A stretch of DNA of 49,690 bases, from positions 1 to 49,690 of IMG/VR virus record IMGVR_UViG_3300020183_000121; one strand, written 5' to 3'. This document shows, one piece after another, positions 2,321-44,724 of the stretch. The notes beneath the pieces are model-generated. The model searched no databases. It saw only the letters and a list, made by a program, of their open reading frames with translations, and was not told the DNA's origin. This DNA is from a virus. The translations under genes were made by a program, and so were the position numbers. Every line of letters starts with the position of its first letter. Position 1 is the stretch's first letter.

Positions 2321-2330
2321 ATGTATTTAC

Positions 2331-3008: not shown

Positions 3009-3023
3009 GGTAGATTCCTTTTT

Positions 3024-3725
3024 TTATAAAGCACTAATTTTGGTGCGGACTGTGTAATCGATCACATCTTCAATATTTATACTCTTCTTGGGGTCAAACG
3101 TTCCATTGTTGTCTATTATATTTTTCATTATTGCAATCATGCGATCCTTGTCATTTGGGTACTTGGAGTAAAACGCCTTGCAAATGACCTCTTCTTTATC
3201 CGAAGAGACTCCATGGGTGCCCTCGTGACCTTCATAGGCACTTTCAATCAACTCCATCTGACTCTTTGTGAAATACTTGATGAACGGAGACGTGTCCAAA
3301 TCTTCAAATACTTTCCAATTAAGATTCTCGGCAATGTAATTGCGACCTGGGTATATTGTCATGTCATTGTATAGTGACACAGCAGATACAAATATAGCTC
3401 CAAGAGCGCATACTTCGCATTTCTTAATATTACATACATATTCACTTAAGTCTACTGCAAAGTCGTCTAACTCATCTTGGGGTATCTTATCAACCTTAGA
3501 GTTTATAAAGTCGTCAATACTGCCCATCTTAGAATCTTCAACCCAGATGAGTCTTTCGGGTATGAGTTTTTTTGAGTTGAGTTGAGAGATTACATCCTTT
3601 GCAATTGCAACTCTCATTGCATCGGTAGACGTGGTCTTCTGCTTCTTAGTTATCCTGGCAGACGCATACGGGCAGCTTTCTGTTTTATTTTTCTTGAACT
3701 GCGCCTTTTTTACTTTTGTTGTCAC
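3024..3725 (-). CDS. Hypothetical protein in recombination operon
   Basis: A 233-residue protein with a basic N-terminus (KKAQFKKNKTESC) and a mainly helical body. A CxxC pair (CEVC, about residue 103) precedes a short hydrophobic stretch (ALGAIFVSAVSLY). The start is GTG, overlapping the TAG stop of the upstream nuclease gene by one base, with an AGGA-type ribosome site about five bases upstream, so GTG is well supported. The gene lies between the SbcD-like and HTH genes, which suggests the same transcription unit. I do not recognise the family and assign no function. A single CxxC is not enough to claim metal binding. Confidence 0.75.
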   Translation of the reverse strand: MTTKVKKAQFKKNKTESCPYASARITKKQKTTSTDAMRVAIAKDVISQLNSKKLIPERLIWVEDSKMGSIDDFINSKVDKIPQDELDDFAVDLSEYVCNIKKCEVCALGAIFVSAVSLYNDMTIYPGRNYIAENLNWKVFEDLDTSPFIKYFTKSQMELIESAYEGHEGTHGVSSDKEEVICKAFYSKYPNDKDRMIAIMKNIIDNNGTFDPKKSINIEDVIDYTVRTKISAL

Positions 3726-4858: not shown

Positions 4859-4934
4859 TTTAAATATTTTTTTTTGCTGAGCAAACTCTTTGGGTCTTAA
4901 TACTTTCTTTCAAAACATTACCACATCTTTTTTA

Positions 4935-11979: not shown

Positions 11980-12432
11980 TTATGATTAAAGTAGCAAATA
12001 ATCTTCAACGTATGGTCTCTGTCAAGTCTGCCGGTTTGCAGTGGAGTGGAACGCTCGCAGATCTCGCCAAGATCCTGCCGTATACGAACACCGCCATCGG
12101 CGGCGGTCTGGGGGCCCTGGGGGGTTCTGCCATTGGCGGCTTGATTCAGGCGCTGAGAGGCAAGTCGATTCTAAAAGGCCTCGGCTATGGTGGCCTGGCC
12201 GGACTCGGACTGGGTGGCGGAGTAGGCCTGTACGGGGGTCTTAAAGCTAAAAATCGCCTGCTGGATGATTACATCCCCATACACGGCAATCCAACAATAA
12301 CGATTCCCGGGAACCCTAGATCTCAAGGTGAAGGTTCGACCACAGTCGAGACCGAGTTAGGTCCGTTATATCCTGGGAAAACACCCGGGAACAAATAAAA
12401 AAAAATAAGTTATGATTAAAGTAGCAAATAAT
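11980..12432 (+). repeat. 23-nt direct repeat at two adjacent gene starts
   Basis: Positions 11980-12002 and 12410-12432 are identical and cover the last two bases before ATG plus seven codons encoding MIKVANN. The following codon differs in sequence but again encodes Leu. The sequences diverge completely beyond this point. The identity is confined to the start region, so either a short leader was copied by recombination or it is under strong selection as an N-terminal signal or translation-initiation region. Confidence 0.8.
11982..12398 (+). CDS. Glycine-zipper membrane-active protein
   Basis: A 138-residue protein whose middle (about 37-106) is a glycine-zipper region (IGGGLGALGGSAIGGL, then GLGYGGLAGLGLGGGVGLYG), a pattern able to insert into and oligomerise in membranes, followed by a polar Pro/Thr-rich tail. 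The N-terminus begins MIKVANNL, encoded by the same 23 nt as the start of the next gene. The gene is noticeably richer in G and C than its neighbours. It starts 2 nt after the upstream stop. Such proteins in phages are often packaged and inserted in the host envelope during DNA entry; that is an inference here. A glycine-rich structural linker is an alternative. Confidence 0.7.
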   Translation: MIKVANNLQRMVSVKSAGLQWSGTLADLAKILPYTNTAIGGGLGALGGSAIGGLIQALRGKSILKGLGYGGLAGLGLGGGVGLYGGLKAKNRLLDDYIPIHGNPTITIPGNPRSQGEGSTTVETELGPLYPGKTPGNK

Positions 12433-13224
12433 TTAAGAAAATTAGCTGCCACACACAGTATTCCATCAGAAGAGGAGTATCTTATGTCATTTTGGAACGA
12501 CAGAATGGCAGGTATGACTCCGCATCCGCATGAGAATAGAAACCTGACGGCCGACGACATCAACAAGACGGTTTTGCAGTTCGCAGCAATGAATATCAAC
12601 GATGCTGCACGACAGGCCAAGAGTGTCAGTAGAAAGGGGATGCTAGACGGAAAGAAGCTTAAGGACAAGGATATAGCTTTTGGTCCCGGAACCGCTACTG
12701 CATTAGCTGCGAGTACAATCGCTTACTTACGAGCTTTGGGAATAACGGGAATAAGCCTTGGCCAACACCCATTGGTAACATCTGATTCACGTAAAAATCT
12801 AAGCAGTGCAGCGCTAACCTTACTTGATAGATCTGAAGCAGACAAGCGACTGGATGAGTTATTGGCAGAGAGAAAGAAGGAAATGGGCTTTCTTTCTAGG
12901 ATATTCACCTCGGACAAGAATATAGTTGATAGCCTATCTAAAAACCCAAATATAGCTAAGCAGATTCAAACTCTGATAAAGGAGCACACCTTAGGCGTTG
13001 CAGCGCCAGGTGCCGACTACAAAGCTGTTGCAAAGATGTACAAGCAGCTATCAGATGCCGCCAAAAAGAGATATACTGGCACCTATAAGAATCCAGCTAT
13101 ATCTCATATCCTTGATACAAAGAAGGATCTGAAGAAGCAGATTGAGATGCAATCTAAACTTATCAACGAGGCTTATCCTAACGCCGGCATATTCGCAGAT
13201 AACCTTGCAAAGGCAGAAGAATAA
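12412..13224 (+). CDS. Hypothetical protein with MIKVANNL leader
   Basis: A 270-residue mostly helical, Lys/Ala-rich protein. It begins with the same MIKVANNL leader as the gene before it and then diverges. One moderately hydrophobic stretch (TATALAASTIAYLRALGITG, about 88-107) could be a membrane or membrane-associated helix. Dibasic and Lys/Asp-rich segments follow (KKDLKKQIEMQSKL near 238-251). It is 13 nt downstream of the glycine-zipper gene. It may be an internal head or ejection protein carrying a packaging leader; the sequence alone does not prove this and no family is recognised. Confidence 0.7.
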   Translation: MIKVANNLRKLAATHSIPSEEEYLMSFWNDRMAGMTPHPHENRNLTADDINKTVLQFAAMNINDAARQAKSVSRKGMLDGKKLKDKDIAFGPGTATALAASTIAYLRALGITGISLGQHPLVTSDSRKNLSSAALTLLDRSEADKRLDELLAERKKEMGFLSRIFTSDKNIVDSLSKNPNIAKQIQTLIKEHTLGVAAPGADYKAVAKMYKQLSDAAKKRYTGTYKNPAISHILDTKKDLKKQIEMQSKLINEAYPNAGIFADNLAKAEE

Positions 13225-13235
13225 ACTGAAATCTA

Positions 13236-13937
13236 ATGCCAATTAAAAGCATAACAGCATCTAAAGCGTACGATCAGCTGTGGAAAAGTCGGGATACCGT
13301 CGGCACTGTGCTGCTTACTATGATTCTGGACTCTTACGGTCAGGAGATCTTTGATATGGACCCTCAGGCATTTCGTCAGGAGCTTGAGGAGGGGTTTTCA
13401 GTATCTGATATCCCTGATGTGAACACCGATAAAATATGGGCACTTTGGAACTCTTTGACGACCGACCTAGTTCATACAGATGTGTCCACTTTTATGAACT
13501 GTGCCAATGTTTTAAGTGGAACACCTATGAGCTATGACGTCTTTGACATAGCCGATCCATATGAATGTGCTTGGGCTATTACCGAGCTCACTATGCTGGA
13601 CTCCAACACCCCTGAGCGTCTCAGTCCAGAAGTTCGTAGATATATAGGCGAGATCTGTAAGGAGCTGGGCCTCTATCGTTTGCCTCCATCGCTTTCAAAA
13701 GTAGCGGAAATGGGCCCAAACGATTATGTAGCAAATATGGAATCCTACGCTACAGATACCGTACAACTTCAAATAATGATCCAAAATCAAATTAAATTCA
13801 AAGATGACGTACAGGCATATGTCGATAGGAGGACCAGCAAGATGATGCTGGAGCTTAACAACGTGCCATTGATGAATAAGGACTCTAGGTCATGGAATAA
13901 GTTTGTATCAGGGTTTGCAAAGGGAGTGTCTAAATGA
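13236..13937 (+). CDS. Hypothetical protein
   Basis: A 233-residue soluble, acidic, helical protein with many Asp and Met and no membrane segment. It begins MPIKSITASKAYDQLWKSR. No catalytic motif is recognisable. It starts 11 nt after the previous stop, and its own stop overlaps the next start (ATGA at 13934), so it is coupled to the second glycine-zipper gene. Its position suggests a virion or virion-assembly role together with its neighbours, but I do not recognise the family. Confidence 0.7.
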   Translation: MPIKSITASKAYDQLWKSRDTVGTVLLTMILDSYGQEIFDMDPQAFRQELEEGFSVSDIPDVNTDKIWALWNSLTTDLVHTDVSTFMNCANVLSGTPMSYDVFDIADPYECAWAITELTMLDSNTPERLSPEVRRYIGEICKELGLYRLPPSLSKVAEMGPNDYVANMESYATDTVQLQIMIQNQIKFKDDVQAYVDRRTSKMMLELNNVPLMNKDSRSWNKFVSGFAKGVSK

Positions 13938-14617: not shown

Positions 14618-14926
14618 TTAAGAGCCCCTAGTAGTATTTGTTATTTTCTTAGATAGCTTGCTTGCGTCTACTCTTGCACCTAGTTTGTAAAGTGCTCTAG
14701 AGATATCGAAAGCCGCTCTTTCCACAGCTTCCTCGTCTATGTCCCAAAAGCATCCGTGCAGGCATTCATGAAGAAGTACCTCCAAAATCTCCTGACTTTT
14801 TCTAAGCCTAGTTGAAATTCTTATGCTTTTATTTACATAGCTCGGTGGATCTATTTCTCCTCTTATAGAGGGCCCTAAATCCATTTTAACTATTTTCCAA
14901 GTATTGTTGCGCAGCTTTACTTCCAT
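14618..14926 (-). CDS. Small HExxH (zincin-like) protein
   Basis: With the chosen ATG at 14926 this is a 102-residue protein (a longer frame from 14977 would overlap the previous gene by 50 nt). ATG 14926 lies one base after the preceding stop, with a GGA element six to eight bases upstream. The motif LLHECLHGCFWDIDEEAVE contains HExxH (His53, Glu54, His57) followed by acidic residues that could serve as third ligand, the arrangement of SprT-like and related zinc metallopeptidases. It would be a minimal metalloprotease fold, last gene in the structural unit. Substrate is unknown; it may act in maturation, in host-protein degradation, or be a non-enzymatic relative. Confidence 0.6.
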   Translation of the reverse strand: MEVKLRNNTWKIVKMDLGPSIRGEIDPPSYVNKSIRISTRLRKSQEILEVLLHECLHGCFWDIDEEAVERAAFDISRALYKLGARVDASKLSKKITNTTRGS

Positions 14927-14927
14927 G

Positions 14928-15218
14928 CTAAATCCAAAATATAATCGCCATTCTTTTCTGTTCATCCGGCTGCTCAATTGCAGTCGATTTATATAAATCG
15001 TATACCAAATCCTTCTTATACACGAGATATCTATTATTTATGATTGAAAACTTAGCAGGAAGTTCTTTTTCGTTTTGCAGATTTTCCATAATATCTGCAA
15101 TTGTTGCAATTTCGAATCCTGCTAACTTTAAGGCTTCACATATGGGTATTAGTTTATCTGCGAACTCGCTTTTCCGTACAAATATCTTTTGTTCAGCGTT
15201 GGTTAAAGTGGTACTCAT
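14928..15218 (-). CDS. Hypothetical protein
   Basis: A 96-residue soluble protein beginning MSTTLTNAEQKIFVRKSEF, with a helical pattern and an acidic ELPAKF segment in the middle. Its ATG overlaps the stop of the gene before it (ATGA at 15215). It ends just before the HExxH gene, with which it is probably co-translated. No family is recognised. Confidence 0.65.
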   Translation of the reverse strand: MSTTLTNAEQKIFVRKSEFADKLIPICEALKLAGFEIATIADIMENLQNEKELPAKFSIINNRYLVYKKDLVYDLYKSTAIEQPDEQKRMAIIFWI

Positions 15219-15490: not shown

Positions 15491-16397
15491 TTAAGTTTGC
15501 CTCCTTTATCATGTCATCTATATTAACTTTAACTTTAGTAAACTTTGCTACGGCAGAGTGTACGTCTGGAGCCAGATATTTCAACTTACTGTCAAGTTTT
15601 GCTTGTAATTCATTAATTTTTCCTTGGGCTTGTGCTACTTGTTTCAAGGAGTGCAAGTGCGTTACCTTAATCCCTGGAACGGTTTTTCCGGATAATACCT
15701 GATGCTCTTTTAGAAGTGGCACTACTCTTTTTCTATGTTTGCTCTGAAGTATGTAAGAACTTAGCGCTTGTTCTATATAGGAAATTCCATTTTCTATTGC
15801 GTATACTATCTCATCTGACTTGTTATAAAATCTATCATTAGTTTCCATTAAATCTAAAAGTTCTTGACCACAGGATTTAATGGTTTTTATGTCGTGCCCT
15901 CCAAATATCGCCATATTTAATGGAGATTTATTCTCAGGGTATAGTTTATCGTAAAGTGGAACCTTTACACCTGAGGCAATGAAATTTTCAAGGATCTGTT
16001 CATATCTAGGCCAAACGTGGGCCTCTGAGTAAAAGTTAAATATATCGTTATCTAAAAATTCTTTTGGAAGCGGATCCCACAAAAATAAATCGATATCGTA
16101 GTGAACAAATGGGCAATCTATTGTTGCGTAGGTGTGCAGCTTACTGTGAATCCAGAAACATTCGTGCGAACCAAACTCATAACCAACTGAAACGACCTTT
16201 GAGTAAGGCAAACTACATGCTTTAGCAAGTTCAGCTCCAATATCGTCTGTAATCAGGACAAAGTCATCATGATGTTTGCGTATACTGACTGCCGAAAGCG
16301 CCATCATGGTTATAATTGGCTTTACCACTGACGCCCCGCCAATAGATTCTAATAGCGGTCTTAACTTATCAAACTTATATGAATGAATTGCTCTCAT
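15465..16397 (-). CDS. GT-A-like glycosyltransferase
   Basis: A 310-residue protein with features of the nucleotide-sugar (GT-A) fold: DDFVLITDD near residue 44-52, a DxD-type metal motif in FVHYDIDLFLWDPL (Asp101, Asp103), and LNMAIFGGHD, like the N-x-(G/A)-IFGG segment seen after the acceptor-side loop in such enzymes. The C-terminal ~60 residues are Lys-rich and helical. It would transfer a sugar to a virion or host component. Its ATG overlaps the stop of the cysteine-rich protein gene (ATGA at 16394), which makes that protein or the tail array an attractive substrate. Fold assignment is fair; donor and acceptor are unknown. Confidence 0.65.
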   Translation of the reverse strand: MRAIHSYKFDKLRPLLESIGGASVVKPIITMMALSAVSIRKHHDDFVLITDDIGAELAKACSLPYSKVVSVGYEFGSHECFWIHSKLHTYATIDCPFVHYDIDLFLWDPLPKEFLDNDIFNFYSEAHVWPRYEQILENFIASGVKVPLYDKLYPENKSPLNMAIFGGHDIKTIKSCGQELLDLMETNDRFYNKSDEIVYAIENGISYIEQALSSYILQSKHRKRVVPLLKEHQVLSGKTVPGIKVTHLHSLKQVAQAQGKINELQAKLDSKLKYLAPDVHSAVAKFTKVKVNIDDMIKEANLNDSNLTNK

Positions 16398-17428
16398 AGA
16401 TTTTTATATCCATAGCCAAATAGAAACAAGGTGTTCAGCTTAACATCAGTCTTAGTTTTTATCAATCCCTTCTCAATACTGTTTTCTACGAAGGTACCAA
16501 AGTTATCCTCAAATTTATTTCCGGGATGTTGCATTTCGGTCTGGAGCCCCAACGCCAAACAACCCGCTGGGTTTGCCGTAGGTTGACCACATCCCATACA
16601 AAGAGGCGGACCTGACGGTGGGCCTGAACCACACGGACATATGCACTTGAAACGCACGCAGCCGGGCTCCTCGCATTCGCAGCAGGCAGGGATGCTGCCG
16701 TCGCAGCAGTCGCAGGTCGCCTCCGGGTTGCAACAGCAGAACTCGGTTGGACAACATAAGGCTGATTGGTAAAAAGTACAGTCATCTGGCCCATCTGTAC
16801 ACTGATCGCAGGCAGGGACCTGATAACAGTTTGGAGGAATGGGATCAGGAGGGCATGGACCGCAAGTTTTAACTGAGCATTCGCCCCCTTCAATAGTAGA
16901 GCAGCAGCATAGCGTAGGAGGCGGAGGCTCACAACACTCCTGTTCTTCGCAATTTGGAGGAGGGCAGTCATCTGCGCATCCGGCGGCCATAGGTCCACAC
17001 GGGCCGCATTCTTTTTTGCAACACGGTCTATTTTTGTCGTTCTTGCAAATCTCCCTGTCGTTAGGAGGTTGATTATTTTCACACTTTATATTATGAAATA
17101 CAGCTGATATGCATGCAGATATTGTATGTCCTGGTGGGAAGCCTCCAGAGCTACCGCCCATTCCACCGCCGCCGCCACCGCTGCCGAATCCTCCAGTACC
17201 TGTCCCCTCTTGTTCAGATATTTCCTCACATACACACTCCTCCTCACTATCCACACATGAAACTATTTTATATTCATACTCGCATTTAACTTCTGGAGGA
17301 ACCCCTGAAATTACATCGCAATCATCCCCTATCTGTTCCACAGGGCAAGTTAAAGCTACAGCGTATGTTTTGCAGCATACAAATTTAGGACTTATGCAGC
17401 AACAAGGTATAGCTGGATTGGTCGACAT
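16394..17428 (-). CDS. Extremely cysteine-rich virion-type protein
   Basis: A 344-residue protein with about 51 cysteines (15 percent), many in CC and CCC clusters (e.g. IPCCCIS near the start, LCCCST, FCCCNPEATCDCCDG), set among Pro, Gly and Glu. A glycine-rich linker (about 80-100) divides it, and a cysteine-free C-terminal part (about 300-344) is more ordinary. ATG 17428 overlaps the upstream TGA as TGATG; a GTG one codon earlier is less likely. It follows the tail-protein array and precedes the glycosyltransferase-like gene. Multiple metal-binding knuckles or a disulfide-rich extracellular adhesin are both possible. Reading frames on other strands inside it are shadows. I recognise no family. 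Confidence 0.7.
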   Translation of the reverse strand: MSTNPAIPCCCISPKFVCCKTYAVALTCPVEQIGDDCDVISGVPPEVKCEYEYKIVSCVDSEEECVCEEISEQEGTGTGGFGSGGGGGGMGGSSGGFPPGHTISACISAVFHNIKCENNQPPNDREICKNDKNRPCCKKECGPCGPMAAGCADDCPPPNCEEQECCEPPPPTLCCCSTIEGGECSVKTCGPCPPDPIPPNCYQVPACDQCTDGPDDCTFYQSALCCPTEFCCCNPEATCDCCDGSIPACCECEEPGCVRFKCICPCGSGPPSGPPLCMGCGQPTANPAGCLALGLQTEMQHPGNKFEDNFGTFVENSIEKGLIKTKTDVKLNTLFLFGYGYKNL

Positions 17429-17715
17429 CACCGCTCGATAGCCTTAAACCCACTTGCAAACACTAGTTTATCTACACCTAGGGCTTTCTTTATTCTATCT
17501 AACTCCATGTCTGAGGCGCTTTGAAGTTGGCTTAAAAGCGAAATTGCAGCATCATTCAGCTTCTTTCTTTTAGCACAAGATGAACACCCAGATGATGTTA
17601 TATCTGAGTTTACAACATCATAAGCATTTTTAATCAAGGGGCTTATCTGTCTTACCTCTTCGTTATTAAGAAGAGCGTTTATGGTAGCGTACGTCATTGC
17701 AAATTTTTTTTCCAT
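17428..17715 (-). CDS. Hypothetical protein with CxxC
   Basis: A 95-residue helical protein beginning MEKKFAMTYATINALLNNEE with a CSSC pair (about residue 44-47) in the middle and a Lys/Leu-rich second half. Its stop overlaps the start of the cysteine-rich protein gene. It could be a chaperone, adaptor or small structural part for that protein; this rests on position only. Confidence 0.65.
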   Translation of the reverse strand: MEKKFAMTYATINALLNNEEVRQISPLIKNAYDVVNSDITSSGCSSCAKRKKLNDAAISLLSQLQSASDMELDRIKKALGVDKLVFASGFKAIER

Positions 17716-23178: not shown

Positions 23179-26100
23179 TTACAAATTAAAGGCTTTGCCT
23201 ACCTGAAATGGAGCTACAGGTATTTCCGCCACATCATTTGAATCGTCTGATCTCACGCACTTTGTGTACAGCCTAGCACCAGCTTCAGGTACATAGGATA
23301 TCAATACCTGGTGATTTCCACTTCCTAAGTTCTCTGGAAGGCCTCCTAAAGAAATTGTCTGAGTTCCTGCGTTTCCGGTACTTATATTAACAGTAGACGA
23401 GGAAAACTCTTGCCAGCCTGCATCTGTCAAGGATTTATAGGTGATCGTTACCTGGCCGGTACCATAGGTTACTTGAGGTAAGTTTAAATTAAATAAAATA
23501 TTATTTTCTTCATTTACAGATTGAGCTATTGTGCTAGGCTGTATTGAATCGCATGGATTAACCGAACTTTTATTAGGCCGTATTGTTATGGACTTTTCCA
23601 CTCCTCCCGCTGGAACTAGCAAATGTTCCGCTTCGTCCGGATTATTACATGGATCCTCATCTTGAGCCGTTCCAGTGTATTTAAATAGTATATTTAATTT
23701 TATGTTAAGTCCTGATCTGTAATTAAGCGATACTATCTTTCTAAACAGAGGATCAACTATAACAAAGCCACCAGTTATCATGGCATACCCGCTACATGGC
23801 GGAGTTATATAAGGACTTTGCCCTGGGGGTCCGCCAGGAACAGGCATTCCAGATTGAGTCAAATCGGCCTCGAATTTAAGTGATCCAGAGTTCGGTACGC
23901 TAAATGTGAAGCCCTGCGATACTGGATTCAGATTCTTGTAGTACAAATACGACGCATCCTCAAGCGGTACCGCGGCCACAGAATCATTTTCATCCATCTG
24001 ATACGTAGCATTTGTTTCCGGATCTACCGCCGATATTGGATTGTAAAGGCTTAAACTTAACTCAAGTTTAAGTTTCTTGATTATCGTTGGCGTATTAGTA
24101 TTATTTTCTACCATGGCCTGCACTTGAACTTTAAAGTTCTGCTGAGGCCACATTCTAAATCTGGAATTCAGCTTTCCTTGAGTTGGACAGGAGCGTAAAC
24201 TATCTTCAAAATTAGTTTGAACATTATTGTAAATGGATACAAGAGCGTTATATTGCTTTACGAGCTCGCTGTACTTTACCGCTACGCCTTTTATGTAGTC
24301 CGATGAATTCTCATAGTCGGTGCATCTGCAGCAAGGGGCGCAGTGAGAATCAAGTTTTATTTTGCCTCCTGACGTAGCAGAGTACCCCGTATCAACACTG
24401 ACACAATCTTCCGAAGGGGCTTGCAACTTTATATCGCCCCTATCGTTTGGCGATACTCCATTTATAGATCTAAGGTAGCCAGGTACGTCTATAAGATCTT
24501 CGCAAGGCTGCAGCCCCTCTCCAGCCCCTATTGATACGGCAAAATTCACTGCTGTGAAATTTTCAGATTTATAATCTAATTGATAGTTGTATCCTGAAGA
24601 AAAAGTTAACAATCCTGTAGATATATTGCGATCTTGTAAATTTAGCGATACCTGTCCAGTGTAAGGTTCCAGGCAAAAGGGAGATAGCGGAAAGTTATCT
24701 GTTGGACTAAAATCAACAAGCGTCGGCACACTTAAAAACACTATTGTCAATGCCAGCCTTCCTTCGTCTATATTCAGTTGAAGGTGATTGTATTTTCCAA
24801 TATTTACAATCTTTGCCGTGTAAGCTCCTGATGATTGAAAGTCTGATTTACTTATCAATAATCTATCGCCAGCGTATACGTTGCATGTAAGTATATAAAA
24901 GACCAAACCTTCTTCAGTAGAAGACGTATCTATTGAAGTGTTAAAGATACTAGATATCTCTATGTCGTTAAGATAAACCTGTTCTCCGGGGTATACGTTG
25001 TACTCTCCAGAAAGTTTTACACTTACTATAGCGGGATTTCCATTTGGATTTTTAACTATAAATGGAAGACCGCTAGATTCTGCTTCCTCTAAAAATCCAG
25101 CCTTATAGGCTGTAGGTAATTTAATAAGCTGGCCACCTTCTTCAGCATTTACAAGCTTTTTTACCACCCCGTCTTGCTCCAACGCTCCTAATAGCCAATC
25201 AGTTTGCGGAGTATTTTTGGCAAAGGAGTCAATAATGCCATTACTAAAGCCATATAAATAAGTTTTTCCATTTGCAGTAAGCAGTAGCGGGCTTCCGCTG
25301 TCACCATTCCAAACAAAACCTAAACCTGAATACCATGAAGGTGTATTTGGCGGGTTCCAGGGAACTGGAAATTCTCCAGAATGGTCTTGATATGGCCTAT
25401 ATAATATAGGCGAATATCCAGAGAAACCAGACGACGAATAGTAACTGCTACCTTGAGTAACAGTATATACTAAATATTTACCGTTTGAATCTTGTCTCCA
25501 AATTTTTACTTCAGGGGGAATAGTTCTAAAGTCAACTATATCGTAGCAATTAATTTGTTGTTGCTCTTCCTCAGTAAGTGGAATTAGCAGTCTATATAAA
25601 TTAGCATCCTCATATCTAGATATGAATTGACCTTCCCTATTAACTATGTCACCATTTTTTTTTAAAAGTCGTATAGTTTGATTTGTATTATTTTCAGGTC
25701 CTACAAAGTGGTTACATCCAAGAAAGTGCTTCGGAGACACCATGCAGAATGGCGGCACCCCATTGTTCCAATTGTTGTGATCAAGGGGATTAAAAATAGG
25801 ATTTTCGGCATACATTCCGTTAGTCGGATTCTGAATGTTTCCATTATCGGCAAGGATCCAGAAAGGTTCACCCTGTATGAAGCCGCTATCAGATCTGAAC
25901 GCAAACCTATTGAGATTTGACCCTCTATTTCTAACATGCAGTCCGCTGAAATCAGGTACGTCAACCCCCTTTGACTGCAGGAAAGAGACCATTCCGGAGT
26001 TATATCCAATTACTGGAGCATGCTGTCTAAATGTAAATCCAGCTGGAAGTGGCCCCCCGGGAGGAATTGGAATTGTCTGACCGCTGGAATCTACATAAGA

Positions 26101-26226
26101 CGAATACTCTGTTGTAACGCAAGGGATTATGGGACCTGAGCCAAACCCCCAGCTAATGAGTCTCAGGTAGGTCTCATCAAACGTATAAATATCGTGTTTG
26201 GTACTATTATAATTATCTATGCGCAT
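23179..26226 (-). CDS. Tail protein with N-terminal trypsin-like protease domain
   Basis: A 1015-residue protein, the largest of the tail array. The N-terminal ~350 residues look like a chymotrypsin-fold serine protease: MVSPKHFLGCNHFVG gives the His region (His173), YEDANLYRLL gives the Asp region (Asp207), and WNGDSGSPLL gives the Ser region (Ser310 in GDSGSP), in the correct order and with plausible spacing. The middle is beta-rich. Near 587-601 it has RSINGVSPNDRGDIKL, then a CAPCCRC knuckle (629-635) followed by a coiled coil, both shared with the 312-residue protein. The C-terminal third is beta-sandwich-like. The protease could cut host surface proteins or mature the tail. The triad is visible; activity is inferred. 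Confidence 0.6.
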   Translation of the reverse strand: MRIDNYNSTKHDIYTFDETYLRLISWGFGSGPIIPCVTTEYSSYVDSSGQTIPIPPGGPLPAGFTFRQHAPVIGYNSGMVSFLQSKGVDVPDFSGLHVRNRGSNLNRFAFRSDSGFIQGEPFWILADNGNIQNPTNGMYAENPIFNPLDHNNWNNGVPPFCMVSPKHFLGCNHFVGPENNTNQTIRLLKKNGDIVNREGQFISRYEDANLYRLLIPLTEEEQQQINCYDIVDFRTIPPEVKIWRQDSNGKYLVYTVTQGSSYYSSSGFSGYSPILYRPYQDHSGEFPVPWNPPNTPSWYSGLGFVWNGDSGSPLLLTANGKTYLYGFSNGIIDSFAKNTPQTDWLLGALEQDGVVKKLVNAEEGGQLIKLPTAYKAGFLEEAESSGLPFIVKNPNGNPAIVSVKLSGEYNVYPGEQVYLNDIEISSIFNTSIDTSSTEEGLVFYILTCNVYAGDRLLISKSDFQSSGAYTAKIVNIGKYNHLQLNIDEGRLALTIVFLSVPTLVDFSPTDNFPLSPFCLEPYTGQVSLNLQDRNISTGLLTFSSGYNYQLDYKSENFTAVNFAVSIGAGEGLQPCEDLIDVPGYLRSINGVSPNDRGDIKLQAPSEDCVSVDTGYSATSGGKIKLDSHCAPCCRCTDYENSSDYIKGVAVKYSELVKQYNALVSIYNNVQTNFEDSLRSCPTQGKLNSRFRMWPQQNFKVQVQAMVENNTNTPTIIKKLKLELSLSLYNPISAVDPETNATYQMDENDSVAAVPLEDASYLYYKNLNPVSQGFTFSVPNSGSLKFEADLTQSGMPVPGGPPGQSPYITPPCSGYAMITGGFVIVDPLFRKIVSLNYRSGLNIKLNILFKYTGTAQDEDPCNNPDEAEHLLVPAGGVEKSITIRPNKSSVNPCDSIQPSTIAQSVNEENNILFNLNLPQVTYGTGQVTITYKSLTDAGWQEFSSSTVNISTGNAGTQTISLGGLPENLGSGNHQVLISYVPEAGARLYTKCVRSDDSNDVAEIPVAPFQVGKAFNL

Positions 26227-26227
26227 T

Positions 26228-27166
26228 TTAGTTTCCGTCTTGAGCGCAACTTGACGAATCTACATTTGATGCCAGGCAAGTAGCCTGCAGCGACTGAACA
26301 CTACTGGTCAGTATAGCTATTTGATTAGCAAGAAAAGATAGTTGAGTAGATAGCGACTCGACATCGGTGACTACGACTTGCAGTTCGTTACAGCCACAGC
26401 AAGGTTTTGCGCATGAATCGGATATAGATATTCCGCCTATTTGACTGGCTATTGATATGCAGTCTCCGGCGGCTACCACTATGTTACCCAAAGAATCGCC
26501 TTCAACATTATTTATCGTGCGTATACACGGTCCTAGCTGTACGTCGTTGCACTCACACTGTGTCTGCAGCCCTCCTCCGTCTACTGCATTAAACTTCAAG
26601 GTGTTTTCATCTACCTGAATTGAGTGGTTTGAGCCGCTCTCAAAAGCAATTTGTCCGGAGAGCACCGGAGTAGTTGCCTCAGACTTTACTACCTTGATTC
26701 CACTTATTCTTTTGGCTCCAACTGATACTACGGATGATTCTAATCTCCCTGCCTCCAATTCGAATTTAAACGTGCCAAGATAGGATTTTATGGAATCTAC
26801 TTTTCCAATAATAGCTGTACCAAAAAGTTGAGAAAAGTCTGCCAATCCGCTTACCACTCCTCTGAAATAAGTGGCTGAATATTCTTGAAATCCCGAGAAA
26901 AGAATAGGATCTGATACAGCGATAGAGGTAATGTCTTTATACCCTAACTGAATTATAAGTCCCTGCGGGTATATGGTTATGGCGCTAACGTAGACATTTG
27001 TTGGGTGAAAGTTAGCTAAAAACGGTATGGCGATTTTCATATCTACCATAAGGCTATCGGGAATGACAAACGAACTATCTATTGATTTTAATGTGGCAGA
27101 CTGGCTGAGAGGATAGTTTCTCAGCAAATTAGAGTTCAGCCATTCAGTTCCTATAATTCCAGACAT
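26228..27166 (-). CDS. Array tail protein 5 (adhesin-like, CC knuckle)
   Basis: A 312-residue protein with the clearest array N-terminus (WLNSNLLRNYPLSQSATL, residues 9-26), then a beta-rich body, the motif RTINNVEGDSLGNIVV, a cysteine knuckle CAKPCCGC (252-259) and a C-terminal coiled coil (about 262-295). The last three elements align in order with residues 587-660 of the 1015-residue protein. A good AGGAGG ribosome site precedes the ATG. Coiled coils of this kind usually trimerise fibres, so this may be the platform or stalk of the complex. Confidence 0.65.
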   Translation of the reverse strand: MSGIIGTEWLNSNLLRNYPLSQSATLKSIDSSFVIPDSLMVDMKIAIPFLANFHPTNVYVSAITIYPQGLIIQLGYKDITSIAVSDPILFSGFQEYSATYFRGVVSGLADFSQLFGTAIIGKVDSIKSYLGTFKFELEAGRLESSVVSVGAKRISGIKVVKSEATTPVLSGQIAFESGSNHSIQVDENTLKFNAVDGGGLQTQCECNDVQLGPCIRTINNVEGDSLGNIVVAAGDCISIASQIGGISISDSCAKPCCGCNELQVVVTDVESLSTQLSFLANQIAILTSSVQSLQATCLASNVDSSSCAQDGN

Positions 27167-29973: not shown

Positions 29974-31149
29974 TTAATATCCGTAGGAGGTGTATTTTAC
30001 TCTGCCTTGAGCTTTAATGGAGATTTTTGGGTTTAAGTCAGGGCTGACGCCAATCATAGCGCTAGGAGCCTTAATCGACAAACTTCCAAGGCATGTAAAA
30101 GAAAAATTAGCATTAACCGCATTAGCAGCTGGGACGTCTACATTTGTAAATATTAAAGTTCTAATATTCAAAGGTAGCACTTGTTGTAATACCTTTAGTG
30201 AAGAGCTTGCCAGCCCATCTATATCTGCCTTTATAAGAATCAAAGAACTGGCTTTTGCCAGTTTACTGCCATATCTAAATGTATTATTTGATTTATAATT
30301 TTGAGGAATGTTTTCCAAAATATTTGGAGACTTATCGTGTAGGATTTCCACCCCATACGTAAAGCATTCGCCTTTTTTAACTAATTTACCTACGACAATA
30401 TCCTGTTTTATCTTTGACGGCTTTACCATATAGCAAGACTTATCAGTTATGATTTGGCAAACATTTGGATAATTAAACACTGCCTCCACTGTCTCATCTT
30501 GTTGGCTTATAGGAGAATTAGCACAATACCCAAGCATATTTATAAGGTCAAAATAATTCTGACCATAAGAAAATAGCCTCCATATATGTTTGAATGGCAC
30601 TTTTCTATATACCTCGTCGGATAGCTGAACTCCTACAGCATAGCCAAGTCTGCTGGTCACAAATCCAGATTCCTTTACAACATTTTTAGCGTAAAATATT
30701 GTTGGAAAAGCATTTAAAGTTTGTTTAAAAGTCAGCAAGCCTTTAGATAATTTATAATCTATTCCTTCGATTAAAACCTTAGTAGGATTGGAAATGCTGT
30801 CATACATAAAGGGTATGGATAGTATTTCTTCAGGTATCGCATATTGAGCAGCATTGCTACTTGGCTCGCCATAAAAATAACTAAAACCATATTTACTGTT
30901 TGAATTTCCAAATATCTCCTTGGCTTGATTGTAATTACTAAATACGTATTTCTCCCATACAGTTATCTTACCTGCGGGCATCTCGATATTTGATGTAGAC
31001 AGCAACAGCTCATCTACAGCTTGCTCGGACTGAGCGTGTACGCTCAGCTGCCCAGAAACTATAGATTTAAGCAATTCAACAGATTTAAAAAATCTGGACC
31101 AGAAAGTTCCCAGCAGGGACAGTACATAACTGGTCTTCAGCAATTTCAA
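29974..31149 (-). CDS. Baseplate-associated protein (unrecognised)
   Basis: About 391 residues from the preferred TTG start at 31149. That TTG overlaps the TGA of the J-like wedge gene (TTGA) and has a GGAG site eight bases upstream; a GTG at 31158 is also possible. The protein starts with a hydrophobic helix (YVLSLLGTFWSRFF) and then has mixed alpha/beta sequence. Position right after the J-like protein matches the tail-protein-I-like or gp7/gp8-like slot of contractile tails, but no motif proves it. Confidence 0.6.
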   Translation of the reverse strand: MKLLKTSYVLSLLGTFWSRFFKSVELLKSIVSGQLSVHAQSEQAVDELLLSTSNIEMPAGKITVWEKYVFSNYNQAKEIFGNSNSKYGFSYFYGEPSSNAAQYAIPEEILSIPFMYDSISNPTKVLIEGIDYKLSKGLLTFKQTLNAFPTIFYAKNVVKESGFVTSRLGYAVGVQLSDEVYRKVPFKHIWRLFSYGQNYFDLINMLGYCANSPISQQDETVEAVFNYPNVCQIITDKSCYMVKPSKIKQDIVVGKLVKKGECFTYGVEILHDKSPNILENIPQNYKSNNTFRYGSKLAKASSLILIKADIDGLASSSLKVLQQVLPLNIRTLIFTNVDVPAANAVNANFSFTCLGSLSIKAPSAMIGVSPDLNPKISIKAQGRVKYTSYGY

Positions 31150-32840
31150 GAGTTGCACTCCACTACGGAGATATCGATAAGATTAGCTTCTATGAAGAAA
31201 GCACAGGTGTTTTCACTAACACCCTTAGAATAGTTTTTAGGAGGCCTCAGCGCATCAGAAGAAAAAATTACATCCTTCGATAAGTCTGGATTTATAATGA
31301 CGCCGTACATATGTATTGGCAGATCTATGGAATATCCGGCCGGCAAATTCTGATAAGCTGTATGTATTAGGGCACTTGCTGGAATTGATTTTCCTATCCC
31401 AAAAGAATTAAACTTAGATACCAGTGCCGATTTTAGAATATTTACATTAGGACTTTCAGAGCCAGTAGGTTTAAGTAATCGCATTTGCATACTGCACATT
31501 ACAGGAATAGGCGCCTTTACAAGCATGTCTGCGCTGAGACTACGCTCCTCGGCCGAATCGACGTAAGCTTGCACCTCCTTAAGATTAGGCATCTTTAAGT
31601 ATTCTACGTATACATGGAACTGGTCTGGTGTACTCGATTCTTGATTGAGAAATATTGCAGGCGGCGCCGCATTACTTACCCATGAGCTCATCGCATTATT
31701 AGCCGGCAGTGCGCACTCATTTATATGAACATATGGAATCTTAAATCTAAATACTATATTTTGATATGAAGTAAACGCAGGAGTCTCCTTATCGGAAACC
31801 AAATGAATTGAATTTCCCTGCATGGTTCTTTTATCAGATATGAGTTCAAACGATCCAGCCTGTGTTAGATCAGAGCGAATAGATTCTATTGTGTATATGC
31901 CGGACGCTTTAGAAGGCGGCAACACGATTTCAAATATCGCCTCCTGGGTGTACTGATGGTCATAGGAAATCATCTGCATAGGCAGCCTTTCCGTTATCCT
32001 CGAAGGATAGCTTGCAGACTTAACATATAAATCTATTCTGTTACCTATGTGGACTTCGTCGACAACATCTCTATGCATCTCTGGATCAAGAAATCCCACC
32101 ACTCCGACGTCCTTTATCTCAGCAAATTGAGACTTCAACTTGGCATTTATGTGTGCCCTGCCTGAAAGCGCCTTACCGACCACCCCTGTCTTAGCCTTAT
32201 TGAGTAAAGATACATTGTCCTCTACATCAGCGCCTCCGATGAAATCGGAATCAGCTTTTCCAGATACTATAGAAGATATTGCTGGGACAATAGAAGAAAT
32301 CACCGTTGATGCTCTGACATTTCCTATGGACCCAGGATTAGTTGCCGATACCGGTAAGGTAGCGGTAAACAGAGTACCCGAGGACTCTATAAGTCTTTGA
32401 GACGCAGCTCCTGTAAAATTAGTCGAAGTAACTAGCACATATGAAGAAGAGGTGCTAAAGGTCACACCGCCAACTGTAAACTTAGTATCGGGAGATATTA
32501 CTACAGAGGAGCTTGTGGTTAAAAACAGCCTTAACAGTCCGGATGCTGTAGACCCATCGCCTCGCTCAACATTAAAATTAGACAATACTCTAGATACCTG
32601 CTCATTATTTACAACATTAGGATTTTTGCTAATTTCAAGCAAACTGCTAGAGATAGTAGCCAGATCAATCTGCTCTTGTACACGAGTTTCGAGGTGCGCA
32701 TATAGTTTTACTACCAGATCTCTCAAGATGGTTCCTGGCGATAGATCTAAATTTGGGTATGTGGCCTTTACAAAGGAAAGTATTTGCTCTTCCTTTGCAT
32801 AGATTTTTTCTGGAGGTTGTTCAGCTAGTGGAGTTTCCAT
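31146..32840 (-). CDS. Baseplate wedge protein, J-like (T4 gp6-like)
   Basis: A 564-residue protein with the family's N-terminal layout: NLDLSPGTILRDLVVKLYAH (about 30-49), coiled linker, then a beta region with VVISPDTKFTVGGVTF and a central segment FIGGADVEDNVSLLNKAK, similar to GGxDxESDxxLRxR in baseplate J proteins. The length fits. It forms the wedge ring that joins and fires the contractile baseplate. It follows the gp25-like gene by one base, as in Mu- and P2-type gene orders. Assignment is good. Confidence 0.82.
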   Translation of the reverse strand: METPLAEQPPEKIYAKEEQILSFVKATYPNLDLSPGTILRDLVVKLYAHLETRVQEQIDLATISSSLLEISKNPNVVNNEQVSRVLSNFNVERGDGSTASGLLRLFLTTSSSVVISPDTKFTVGGVTFSTSSSYVLVTSTNFTGAASQRLIESSGTLFTATLPVSATNPGSIGNVRASTVISSIVPAISSIVSGKADSDFIGGADVEDNVSLLNKAKTGVVGKALSGRAHINAKLKSQFAEIKDVGVVGFLDPEMHRDVVDEVHIGNRIDLYVKSASYPSRITERLPMQMISYDHQYTQEAIFEIVLPPSKASGIYTIESIRSDLTQAGSFELISDKRTMQGNSIHLVSDKETPAFTSYQNIVFRFKIPYVHINECALPANNAMSSWVSNAAPPAIFLNQESSTPDQFHVYVEYLKMPNLKEVQAYVDSAEERSLSADMLVKAPIPVMCSMQMRLLKPTGSESPNVNILKSALVSKFNSFGIGKSIPASALIHTAYQNLPAGYSIDLPIHMYGVIINPDLSKDVIFSSDALRPPKNYSKGVSENTCAFFIEANLIDISVVECNS

Positions 32841-33297: not shown

Positions 33298-33704
33298 CTC
33301 TCCCCCTCTCTAGTAGCCAAGAATCCAGTAATAGCATCCTCAAGTTGAGATATGATTCCCGTCTTATCCTGGGCCATGGCTTCTCTTCTACCAACCTCGT
33401 TTAGCACTCTGTTTATCCTAGACGAGTACCTATAGGCCATATCTCTATGAATTGGAGCCACCGCATCGTTTTGCATCTGCAGTTTCATCAAATCAAAGAA
33501 TTTAAAAGACTCAAGAACGGTAGTGGCAACATACTCTTGCTCCAACTCAGAACGATCAAACATATCGACCAACTCTTTGAAGTTATTATTTCCCTCTTCC
33601 GGCTCCCATAAATTTCTAAAAAAAGAGCCACCGCTCAAGCCAGAGGAGGAGTCCTTGCTGACCTTTTTGAGTGCCTTAAAAACAGTTTTGGTTACTTCTT
33701 TCAC
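33294..33704 (-). CDS. Hypothetical protein in baseplate module
   Basis: A 136-residue helical protein beginning MKEVTKTVFKALKKVSKD. The start is GTG at 33704 overlapping the TGA of the sigma-like gene (GTGA), with AAAGG six bases upstream, so it is well supported. It is rich in Met, Arg and Glu and has no recognised domain. It lies between the sigma-like gene and the gp25-like gene, so both a structural and a regulatory role are possible. Confidence 0.65.
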   Translation of the reverse strand: MKEVTKTVFKALKKVSKDSSSGLSGGSFFRNLWEPEEGNNNFKELVDMFDRSELEQEYVATTVLESFKFFDLMKLQMQNDAVAPIHRDMAYRYSSRINRVLNEVGRREAMAQDKTGIISQLEDAITGFLATREGER

Positions 33705-34723
33705 ATGCTGCCTTTATTTAACTCTACGTACTCCTCCAGTTTTTTAGATAGCTCTGAAGTAAGTTGACTAACTCTTCCTGGGCTTATTCCAAGTTTTTTA
33801 GATATTTCATTATTAGAAAGTATTTTTTTACCATTATAGCCTAATTTATGTTCTAAGATTAACTGCTCTTGAGGAGTTAGCGAACTGTATAAAGTGTCAA
33901 GTACGTTCTTTTTAAAATTAGTATTTTCGGTTGCAGTAATTTCTTGAGAGGTGGCAGGGGTGCTTCCGGAGTAGGCAGTGTGTCCTTCGCTGTAAGTCTT
34001 CTTTTCCATTTCCTTTACTTTTTGAATCTGCTTTACTGACATTCCAGTTAAATCTGCTAATTCTGCATCTGAAGGCGGACGGCCTTTATTTTCGTAGAAC
34101 TCAGCCTCATGCTTCTTAATGGAACTTAGCTGCTGATAGGCACGCTCTGGCATAGGAGAAGGATTAAGATCTCTAGAGTATCTGCTTAAAGGCTGTAACT
34201 GGGTGTATACCCAACTTTTTAAAGATGCTCCAGATTTAGGGTCATAAGTTTTTATAGCTTTTGCTGCCAATACTTTGGCCTTACTCTTTACAGCAGGACC
34301 GGCATTGAGACCAGAATAAGCGTAAATTGCCTTATCAATATCTGATGAAAGTTCATCAAGAATCTTTTGCATATTTTCAGTTTTTTTATTTTTAGCCCAA
34401 TCAGAGTGCATTTCCTCTAAGGTTTGTTTTTTTACCGGAGCTTGAGGAATCGGAGAGGCGCTGGCAGCGGGGAAAGTAGTTGTTGCAATCTGCGGGGATT
34501 TAGGAAGTCCGTCAGTGCCTGTTGGGGCAAGTTTGGGGAATATGGGCTCTAGGGGCTCTGGGGGCTCCGGAGCCTTTAGGGGCTCTTCTGGAAGCTCTGG
34601 AGCTAAAGGAGGCTCTGCAGGCTTCTTAATAGCCTCCATTGAATCGTAGAAAGCGGGTTGCTCAAATCCATTAAACAGACTTAGAGTCTTTGAAGGTTTA
34701 GGTATGGTTGGAAATAAGTCCAT
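33701..34723 (-). CDS. Sigma-70-family-like factor with Pro-rich N-terminus
   Basis: A 340-residue protein. Residues 1-100 are a Pro/Glu/Ala-rich low-complexity segment. Then AAKAIKTYDPKSGASLKSWV (153-172) matches the core of sigma region 2 (FDPxxGxxFxTYA), GRPPSDAELADLTGMSVKQI (214-233) matches region 3, and LTPQEQLILEHKLGY (282-296) followed by NNEISKKLGISPGRVSQLTS (304-323) matches the region 4 helix-turn-helix that reads the -35 box. It would direct host RNA polymerase to phage promoters. Its place inside the tail gene block is unusual, as is the Pro-rich extension. The gene keeps a normal ATG and an ATG-TGA end coupled to the next gene. Family assignment is good. Confidence 0.8.
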   Translation of the reverse strand: MDLFPTIPKPSKTLSLFNGFEQPAFYDSMEAIKKPAEPPLAPELPEEPLKAPEPPEPLEPIFPKLAPTGTDGLPKSPQIATTTFPAASASPIPQAPVKKQTLEEMHSDWAKNKKTENMQKILDELSSDIDKAIYAYSGLNAGPAVKSKAKVLAAKAIKTYDPKSGASLKSWVYTQLQPLSRYSRDLNPSPMPERAYQQLSSIKKHEAEFYENKGRPPSDAELADLTGMSVKQIQKVKEMEKKTYSEGHTAYSGSTPATSQEITATENTNFKKNVLDTLYSSLTPQEQLILEHKLGYNGKKILSNNEISKKLGISPGRVSQLTSELSKKLEEYVELNKGSM

Positions 34724-42003: not shown

Positions 42004-44724
42004 TTATTCCTTTGTTCTGAGTCCGTTTTTAGAAATGACTACATAATTATCCTGGAAGCTGGCTGCCTCGGGATCTATTGATACAGGCTGATCATATCCA
42101 TTTTTGTTGAATCTTAGTTTATCATCAACATATCTTTTATTAGAATTAAATTTTCCAAACTTTCTAACCAAAGCTTCTGCACCAGGCCAAAAATAAGTCT
42201 TGTCACTAGAAACGCCCTGAGAGGTAGTTCCAGCCTCCACAGATGTGTCCACGCCTTTAAATATCATAGGCTCTCCGACACTTTGTGCTTTATACTGCTG
42301 CTGCCAATCAGATTGAAATAGAACATACTTCACGGCGTCCGGTATTCCTCTAAGATCAGAGTCCGGATAGCAGAAAGTCAGATTCTTAAGAGTGCTGTCT
42401 GACTTACCAACTACAGATTTATCTATAAGATCGTAGATCTCTTTTTGTGCTTCAACTATTTCTAAAACTCCTTTTGAAAAATTGGATATAGATTCTTGAA
42501 CAGATCTATCAAGCTTTAAATCGTCCTCTTCCAGATCTGCAATTTGCGGATTCGTGGCGGCAAACGACCGTGCCATAAGAGTCCTGGAGAAAATCGCTGA
42601 TCCGTCAATATAGAAATTTATGTCGGAAGACTTTCCAGAAGCCATAAAGAACTCTGACTCCATAAAAAATCCCCCTCTTGTCTGAAGAGACAAGCCTGAT
42701 TGATTTATAAGGAAGTTTGTTCCAGCTTCAGGACTGTCAAAATTTGTGCAAAACATAGACTGCTGCGCTGCAAATATGCACTGGCTTCCGTTGAAGTTAA
42801 TCGAAGTATCTCCCGAATCCAAATAGATCCTGCATTCATCAGTTTTATTTCCAATATAGGCCTCCTTGGAAACAGTGCATACTGAGGAGCCTGGGGCCTT
42901 GAACCATATCCCTCCGTAGAAGTTAGAATTATTGTTTGGATTCGTAAACGTATCATTATCCTCAAATATAAGATTATTTTTGATCGCTTTGGACTCTATC
43001 AGCACTCCGCCTTTACCATCATTACCTGCCAGAACTGACACATTGCGGTCAGCTTGCAATCTTAAGTCGCCTAGATTGGCACTTAGCTCAACATCGTTTC
43101 CAGCAATTGTGGACACTGAATCGCCCGCTATAGATACAAGATTCTTACCTGGACGTAAGGTAATGTCGCCGGGGCACGAGATATCTATGCTTCCAGCCCT
43201 CATACTTATTGTGGACCCATAGCCATCCTGAAGATGTATGGAGCCATCTTCATGCATCATTATCATAGATCTGGAGGCAAAATACTTTACTTGCTCCCTG
43301 GAATTTATTTTTAAAGTTCCTATCTGTGGAAGTTTGGCAAAATATCTAGACTTGCTAACGCCATTTGCTGCGTTTATGTATCCGCTGGAATCGATGCTTG
43401 ATCTAAATCCAGCTAAATCAACTTCATCAATTTCTTTCAGCGTCCAATCGTCTTTTCTTTCCCTAAAGTGAACGAGGCTCCTGTGGGTTTTAAATGCAGC
43501 ACTATCTGAACTTGCCGCCGAATATAATAGTGAGGCGTGCTCCTCTTCATTTGTAGCTCCCTCTATAGTATAGTCGGCTAGATTTGGGGCATTGCTTTCC
43601 CTGTCTTCTGATATAGATTGTACTTTTGATCCTCGGCTATCGTCCGCCCTGTATTTTTCCTTAGGTGTGGGGATAAAGCAATCCTTGATAAGCGATATGG
43701 ATTTTGCCGACACCACGCTATAGGCGCCAGAACTATCCACATGCTCCCTGAACAACCCGGCCTCATCTTGTTCAGTATCCTCCGAATCTCTTACTTTCTT
43801 GACTATCGGAGCAGTGACAAAGTTGAGTTTTAGATTGGCCAAATATCCTGAAAATTCTGAATATCTAAACCACCCCAACTGTGTCTCCAGTTCGGGTTTA
43901 TATTTACCTGTTAGTTCTGCCCTATCTTGAGATTTAGATCTTATTTGGGCTTCAACCTTAGGTATTGGAGAGTACTCTCCAGAAGCTCCAAGAGACTCTA
44001 CTACGTAGGGATTTAATCTTTTTATTTCTGTATAGTCGCCTGCATCGCAATATGCCAACGTTTCGGATCCCGCTGTGTTTTGTTCAAAATTATAGGAATT
44101 AATTCTGAGCAATGCATCGATGTAATGAAGCTCTACGGAACAATCCATGCCAGATATCAATGAAGCTTGAAGCGCTCCAACAAATAAACCACAACCTAGA
44201 TTATTGAGTATTGTGGTATCGCCTGGATAAGCATCAATAGGGCGGCTATCATTAAAATTATTAAAATAGCAGTTTATTAATCCAGATGAAGATATATTAT
44301 CTTTAAACGATCCAACTGGAGATGAGGCTATTAGTTCCGGGCTGCCCTTTGCAACTGTTGTACCAAAGTGTGAAGCCGGAGACCCAAGTATAAGAGCTTG
44401 ATTTACGCCCAATGCAGGAGTCAGTATTGCCAGTACTCTAGTACCCACACCGTATAGACTGCTGCTAATGGTGGAGAATGCCCCATCAGAAGTCTTTCCA
44501 AATGGTTGAATAGAGGTTGCAATCATATCTGGCAACCCTCCAACTCTGATTCTATAACATTGAAGCTGCTGATTTACCTCTAAAATAGTTGCAAGAAATA
44601 CCTGGCTGGAGAAGTTTTTTCTTTGAGACAGCTCCCCATCCCTAACATAGTTGTCATATTTTTTTGAGAATACTGCAGCCCCTGCATTTGCTGCAATTTT
44701 GGTAGAGTTAGTAGGTAGACTCAT
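42004..44724 (-). CDS. Central spike-type protein (gp5/VgrG-like OB and beta-helix)
   Basis: A 906-residue protein. Residues about 40-116 (LATILEVNQQLQCYRIRVGG ... VGTRVLAILTPA ... ALILG) fit the OB-fold of gp5/VgrG-type spikes. Near 325-350, FREHVDSSGAYSVVSAKSIS resembles a segment in baseplate spike relatives. From about 487 to 580 repeats such as GDITLRPGKNLVSIAG and GDLRLQADRNVSVLAG form a beta-helix with repeated Gly/Asp turns. The rest is not recognised, and no lysozyme domain is seen. It would cap the tube and pierce the envelope. Its place between tube and chaperone genes is unusual. A terminator-like hairpin lies in its 5' leader. Confidence 0.65.
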   Translation of the reverse strand: MSLPTNSTKIAANAGAAVFSKKYDNYVRDGELSQRKNFSSQVFLATILEVNQQLQCYRIRVGGLPDMIATSIQPFGKTSDGAFSTISSSLYGVGTRVLAILTPALGVNQALILGSPASHFGTTVAKGSPELIASSPVGSFKDNISSSGLINCYFNNFNDSRPIDAYPGDTTILNNLGCGLFVGALQASLISGMDCSVELHYIDALLRINSYNFEQNTAGSETLAYCDAGDYTEIKRLNPYVVESLGASGEYSPIPKVEAQIRSKSQDRAELTGKYKPELETQLGWFRYSEFSGYLANLKLNFVTAPIVKKVRDSEDTEQDEAGLFREHVDSSGAYSVVSAKSISLIKDCFIPTPKEKYRADDSRGSKVQSISEDRESNAPNLADYTIEGATNEEEHASLLYSAASSDSAAFKTHRSLVHFRERKDDWTLKEIDEVDLAGFRSSIDSSGYINAANGVSKSRYFAKLPQIGTLKINSREQVKYFASRSMIMMHEDGSIHLQDGYGSTISMRAGSIDISCPGDITLRPGKNLVSIAGDSVSTIAGNDVELSANLGDLRLQADRNVSVLAGNDGKGGVLIESKAIKNNLIFEDNDTFTNPNNNSNFYGGIWFKAPGSSVCTVSKEAYIGNKTDECRIYLDSGDTSINFNGSQCIFAAQQSMFCTNFDSPEAGTNFLINQSGLSLQTRGGFFMESEFFMASGKSSDINFYIDGSAIFSRTLMARSFAATNPQIADLEEDDLKLDRSVQESISNFSKGVLEIVEAQKEIYDLIDKSVVGKSDSTLKNLTFCYPDSDLRGIPDAVKYVLFQSDWQQQYKAQSVGEPMIFKGVDTSVEAGTTSQGVSSDKTYFWPGAEALVRKFGKFNSNKRYVDDKLRFNKNGYDQPVSIDPEAASFQDNYVVISKNGLRTKE

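Follow-up and report, generated by a model that had tools for sequence, protein, structure and literature searches.

The uncultivated virus record IMGVR_UViG_3300020183_000121 (49,690 bases, referred to over its full length as the window) comes from a phage known from environmental DNA alone, and it encodes a 1015-amino-acid (aa) protein whose N-terminal domain is joined in frame to a phage tail protein. For residues 1-371 of this protein, a chymotrypsin fold of the clan PA serine peptidases together with a His-Asp-Ser triad is well supported by structural modelling and family alignment. In the lineage of the window the protease domain is, as judged by comparing orthologous sequences, an optional N-terminal cassette on the tail protein. 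Activity, virion location, substrate and timing are all inferred, and we give about even chances to a tail-mounted clan PA serine endopeptidase that would cut a protein of the host surface.

An earlier reading of the DNA letters (the original prediction) had seen in this open reading frame (ORF) a trypsin-like serine protease fused to tail modules, and had proposed HHpred or AlphaFold on the N-terminal part as a check. The AlphaFold2 model, built on 22 aligned rows (predicted local distance difference test, pLDDT, 65.7; predicted template modelling score, pTM, 0.71), does have the chymotrypsin fold. A Foldseek search of the PDB returned 138 matches with E<=0.001, the best at E 2.0e-5, and VIA placed 967 of 998 chains at Z>=8, headed by Deg5 (4ic5_A; Z 13.7, root-mean-square deviation 3.5, 180 residues aligned); every one of the 50 VIA matches listed is a chymotrypsin-fold protease or an inactive relative. 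The ten-residue blocks from 161 to 250 reach a pLDDT of 79-93, except 171-180 at 68, and the model has a C-terminal helix that is shared with clan PA serine peptidases. An earlier AlphaFold2 model from 11 rows was weaker (pLDDT 57, pTM 0.62), and fold searches with it still gave chymotrypsin-fold proteins. Profile searches agree weakly with a chymotrypsin-type reading, no match being relied on singly: PDB hmmsearch runs found 35 and 23 sequences, whose names are mostly those of S1-type proteins, at E 0.049 or worse, Rv1815_serprot matched seven of 11 family members (best E 0.0042), Trypsin_2 matched one of 11 (E 0.0027), and Peptidase_S6 matched the relative on contig L150 (E 0.00033, under the family cut-off). 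With the window protein alone, Pfam, PHROG and PDB sequence searches gave no useful match; it misses the curated Pfam cut-offs of Trypsin and Trypsin_2, and its protease domain is not recognised by NCBIfam. Weak matches of CBM_6 and BamC type within residues 917-960 (E between 0.1 and 0.9) were dismissed as chance.

The catalytic residues named originally, His173, Asp207 and Ser310 in chymotrypsin order, were confirmed at those positions in the ORF translation, and the H-D-S order is kept in homologs. All three, with the GDSG surrounding the serine, occur without exception in the 40 distinct sequences, the window among them, even though identity to the window drops as low as 23%; His11, Asp12, Gly95, Asn154, His167, Pro313 and Gly330 are likewise invariant in the 40. 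The sets of 38 and 40 sequences used here are distinct over the first 330 residues, include the window, its 99% twin and many close relatives, and were counted after removal of loci refetched from one contig. Asp207 was absent from every search pattern that retrieved family sequences. Finds made with GDSG or KH..C.H patterns are no test of those residues, but the finds of other scans do test Ser310; sequence trimming required GDSG, which all rows had. The count for His11-Asp12 is biased, since HD was part of some search patterns and was used to choose the start Met. The window translated in all six frames contains a second GDSG, but the protease-like setting is unique to the one at Ser310. At the sixth residue before the GDSG serine, equivalent to trypsin Asp189 if the loop is gapless, Asp is found in 0 of 38 sequences, and therefore the Lys/Arg preference of trypsin is not expected; the label "trypsin-like" thus fits the fold and the triad, not the specificity.

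The fused ORF recurs in two further contigs, with 99% identity in the domain and 100% in the core, and in contig G023, where domain identity is 39-41%, which makes it unlikely to be a product of misassembly. Scanning with the tail core (residues 374-1015) found 13 contigs, of which three carry the fused protease (two near-identical to the window, plus G023, i.e. two lineages) and ten carry none. Sorted by start, these ten make up three groups, MSPTKYAAGFLEE, MALRKYAAGFLEE and MQSSYGAGFLEE, comprising four contigs with one start, five near-identical contigs and one separate. The first ATG of the protease-less orthologs lies 4-5 residues ahead of the conserved Tyr of YxAGFLEE, that is, at the junction; in the MSPTKYAAGFLEE and MALRKYAAGFLEE groups the frame is open upstream of this ATG and the start is uncertain, an upstream TTG being possible. 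The span first assigned to the protease, 25150-26226, corresponds to residues 1-359; the protease-less orthologs place the natural boundary at about residues 369-373. On contig G022 the tail gene is without protease, a free protease lies elsewhere, and the orthologs of neighbouring tail genes are kept.

The fusion to tail modules was also supported, as a baseplate wedge gene lies in the same run, the neighbouring gene product shares a module with the core, and orthologs without the protease exist. The gene is tightly packed in this tail gene run, with 1 base to its upstream and 8 to its downstream neighbour, at about 15 kb from the terminase gene. From these surroundings we infer that the core is a structural (tail) protein. 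Over its HCAPCCRC and WPQQNFK stretches the four aligned orthologs agree completely, the CAPCCRC motif of the original prediction being present from residue 629, and its INGVSPNDRG motif is one that we take to resemble phage fibre motifs.

Relatives of the protease amount in total to about 50 uncultivated viral contigs. No protease match was returned by tblastn against 50,697 phage records or against 72,556 plasmids, and in two pattern scans of prokaryote genomes 0 of 170 and 0 of 47 pattern matches were confirmed, short exact patterns being liable to miss relatives, so that cellular ones may well exist. An alignment of the terminase retrieved 58 related viral contigs, and a protease-domain search of 37 of these matched in four: the two near-identical to the window, G023 (a fused copy in the same place, 39%, and another that is free, 26%) and G022 (a free copy, 30%). 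A profile search of 40 records, partly overlapping the 37, found the family in 11 and none in Salmonella phage Arash or Vibrio phage D69; in G001/G002 there was a second weak profile match (E about 0.01, over 35 model positions). Alignments were used to scan viral sequences four times, yielding 16, 41, 43 and 10 loci, many of which share contigs. In a tree of 37 rows, from which the twin L001 was left out, the window with G023 (100/99) and L087 with L149 (100/98) are firm pairs, the branches are long and the deeper joins unsure.

Free family members have about 350-355 aa, and dockerin-like repeats occur in 29 of 38 distinct sequences, with Pfam Dockerin_1 above cut-off in all five such proteins scanned; by Pfam scan and repeat count the window protein has no Dockerin_1 module. 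In bacteria, dockerin repeats belong to extracellular enzymes. Fusions with other partners were also found. On L148 the protease heads a 1030-aa protein whose next gene encodes a baseplate wedge subunit (phrog_438, E 6e-43), and on L087, with L149 alike in layout when judged by eye, it is fused to a module that is a separate adjoining gene on L150 (E 1.8e-12), a gene with weak matches to phrog_358 (function unknown, E 4.1e-5) and to a Synechococcus phage baseplate wedge gene (E 0.07). The differing partners would imply two or three independent fusions. The proteins that adjoin the protease on L087 and on G023 showed no supported relationship to each other (E 0.15). On L129 a single small ORF separates a free copy from the tail gene ahead of it (phrog_5939). 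Ten protease neighbours were scanned, giving two replication genes, two genes with tail-family matches (L129, E 3.5e-61; L148, E 2.3e-6, where the best match is an RCC1-type family), one with weak matches of unknown function and five without a match. Because most members are free and some adjoin replication genes, attachment to the tail is not the general state of the family.

Several proteins around or within the family were observed in passing. Large proteins by a free protease at L143:6843-8915 and L147:3934-6327 also end in dockerin-like repeats, the Dockerin_1 score being 21 bits in L147 against a cut-off of 22.9 and weaker in L143. Related proteins lie near a free protease in three phages (L077:7427-8677, L144:3616-5058 and L158:405-1640), the first of them beginning with a signal-peptide-like stretch; a cohesin identity suggested for this group by eye found no Pfam or PDB support with the two copies searched. 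The protease relatives on L213 and L216, of about 435 and 447 aa, have C-terminal extensions that look fibronectin-like by eye. The free protease gene of G023 directly precedes a homolog of window 13236-13937, and the window counterpart of this site is a 270-aa gene, 12412-13224 (+), with no protease match.

As we picture it, residues 1-371 would be a catalytically competent serine endopeptidase at the N-terminus of a tail or baseplate protein, which would travel on the tail with the virion and, during adsorption, would cleave a host-surface protein (a surface-layer, outer-membrane or matrix protein), so that a path is opened for the tail. Catalysis is argued from the invariance of the triad and GDSG across very divergent proteins, and travel with the virion from the fusion to a tail protein. 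Since orthologs of three lineages do without the domain, assembly would not generally require it, and its optional presence on one tail protein would fit a role at the host surface better than an obligate assembly step. Hence, of the two roles first suggested, digestion of host surface proteins and processing of neighbouring tail proteins, the former is favoured.

A maturation protease, releasing itself or trimming neighbouring tail proteins in assembly, would suit a gene that sits inside the tail run and is fused to a tail protein, and many structural matches in BFVD come from polyproteins of RNA viruses, in which proteases of the chymotrypsin fold carry out the processing of viral proteins. 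We nevertheless regard this role as rather unlikely, given that ten of the 13 tail-core contigs (three lineages) do without the domain, that G022 retains its neighbouring tail-gene orthologs with a protease-less tail gene, so that assembly is not generally dependent on it, and that the YxAGFLEE junction is part of the core, no separate conserved cleavage site being evident between the two fused lineages. The enzyme could instead act within the infected cell, or once it has lysed, on proteins of the host or of rivals, serving takeover, counter-defence or nutrient release, and the tail fusion would then be incidental. Such a role would agree with the replication genes next to some free relatives and with the dockerin-like repeats on most of them; in the window and on G023, L148, L150 and L087/L149, however, the protease is fused to a gene of tail, baseplate or tail-like type or directly adjoins one, and we consider this role unlikely.

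The protease fold could also serve as a binding scaffold in an adhesin, catalysis not being needed, and the model indeed matches the inactive S1-fold proteins HGF and haptoglobin as well as one chain from the umbrella-toxin particle Umb1 (8w20). That all 40 sequences keep His, Asp, Ser and GDSG, although the most divergent are only 23% identical to the window, speaks for an active enzyme instead, and we hold such a pseudoprotease to be quite unlikely. A chance motif in a fold unrelated to chymotrypsin, for which the lack of any useful Pfam, PHROG or PDB match with the window protein alone could be cited, is contradicted by the fold searches, the family-wide triad and the weak profile matches, and must be considered very improbable.

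The reading of a tail-mounted, host-surface-cutting peptidase has to be set against several results. Most distinct members are free and bear dockerin-like repeats (29 of 38), two of the ten neighbours belong to replication (ribonucleotide reductase and SbcC-like), and the ten protease-less contigs amount to only three lineages. No copy was found in 29 of the 40 profile-searched records, many of which are fragments, so that absence is weak evidence. In the AlphaFold2 model the block of H173 has a pLDDT of 68 and that of S310 one of 51, residues 105-150 and 287-305 fall below 50, and HGF and haptoglobin among the VIA matches are inactive proteins. Taking the free forms and the fusions together, a wider idea that we put forward tentatively is a phage-borne family of chymotrypsin-fold proteases, missed by the standard family libraries, that may spread between phages as a cassette, may occur free with a dockerin anchor or be mounted repeatedly on baseplate and tail proteins, and that may drill through protein surface layers, perhaps those of dockerin-rich Planctomycetota; this host is our assumption from AWG-type dockerin repeats alone.

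The predicted fold, the H-D-S order and the GDSG loop are shared with clan PA serine peptidases of the HtrA/Deg and S1 types (Deg5 4ic5, DegP, plasminogen, thrombin, V8-type glutamyl endopeptidase), but identity is 9-16% in the structural alignments listed, and the window family has a Cys171, His167 and N-terminal HD of its own and no trypsin Asp189. Phage tail-associated enzymes include tailspike depolymerases, tail lysozymes and capsule peptidases, and those known mostly cut glycans or peptidoglycan. Like them, the window domain would be an enzyme module borne by a tail protein, and tail proteins that otherwise match may have or lack it; unlike them it is predicted to be a chymotrypsin-fold peptidase, not directed at glycan or peptidoglycan. 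With bacterial dockerin-bearing enzymes (PF00404) the free phage relatives share Dockerin_1, whereas the window protein ends as a tail protein. The best structural match in BFVD is A0A6J7XEP5, an uncharacterised protein of an uncultured Caudovirales phage (E 1.6e-6, 15% identity), and given this match relatives of the protease may already have been deposited without a function; A0A1S5Y2X3 of an uncultured archaeal virus, a "trypsin-like peptidase domain-containing serine protease", matches at E 1.7e-5 with 13% identity.

Rhizobium phage P10VF and Sinorhizobium phage phiM9, members of a T4-like supercluster, have been credited with a "trypsin-like serine protease", for which the cluster N section of the paper mentions no tail fusion, unlike the window (PMC10783043). 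The titles and abstract openings listed from the literature searched, with most subscription journals and preprints lying outside, contain no description of a chymotrypsin-fold protease in a phage tail. What appears to be new is the protease family and its mounting on tail proteins; the fold and the existence of phage tail enzymes are old. If true, a tail-mounted protease would offer phages a distinct route across protein surfaces, and the idea can be tested because otherwise matching tail proteins occur in both forms, bearing the protease and lacking it. Since the window protein goes unseen by Pfam and PHROGs, such proteins have probably been overlooked in viral metagenomes. A further puzzle is the presence of dockerin modules on phage proteins.

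Table 1. Features of the fused protein and of neighbouring tail genes in the window.
Feature	Coordinates	Strand	Basis
1015-aa ORF, N-terminal protease domain + tail protein	23179..26226	-	ORF; same ORF in two further contigs, homologous 963-aa ORF in G023
Predicted chymotrypsin-fold serine-protease domain, residues 1-371 (end approximate)	25114..26226	-	AlphaFold2 and fold searches; boundary from protease-less orthologs
Family-specific His11-Asp12 near N-terminus	26191..26196	-	40/40, partly selected for
Family-specific Cys171, 2 residues before catalytic His	25714..25716	-	39/40
Predicted catalytic His173 codon (FLGCNHFVGPE)	25708..25710	-	His in 40/40
Predicted catalytic Asp207 codon (ISRYEDANLYR)	25606..25608	-	Asp in 40/40; in no search pattern
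Predicted catalytic Ser310 codon, in GDSG (VWNGDSGSPLL)	25297..25299	-	Ser in 40/40
Tail-protein core, residues 374-1015, begins YxAGFLEE	23182..25107	-	Orthologs with and without protease
INGVSPNDRG motif, residues 588-597	24436..24465	-	Alignment
CAPCCRC cysteine motif, residues 629-635	24322..24342	-	Invariant in 4/4 aligned orthologs
312-aa neighbouring tail protein, shares part of the core's module	26228..27166	-	Comparison with core
Baseplate wedge subunit	31146..32840	-	PHROG 6, E 1.2e-21

Elsewhere in the window, the terminase was recognised by a PHROG 675 match (E 6.2e-57), and its closest counterparts in the phage collection, about 29% identical, come from Salmonella phage Arash and Vibrio phage D69. 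Close to the baseplate gene lies a Sigma-70 region 3/4 protein, 33701-34723 (-), and an annotated sigma factor is found at a similar location in Arash. A DUF2345 match at 42004-44724 scores under the family cut-off. On the tail side of the gene map, 16394-17431 (-) encodes a 345-aa protein with 51 cysteines. The 119-aa ORF 14618-14977 (-) contains LLHECLHG, which is similar to the HExxH motif of zinc peptidases. An SbcC/SbcD-like pair is found at 134-2320 and 3725-4858 (-). Among the related contigs, L031 and L032 show at 2001-4895 a terminase match extending over 2895 bases against the usual ~1950, which suggests an insertion such as an intron or intein.

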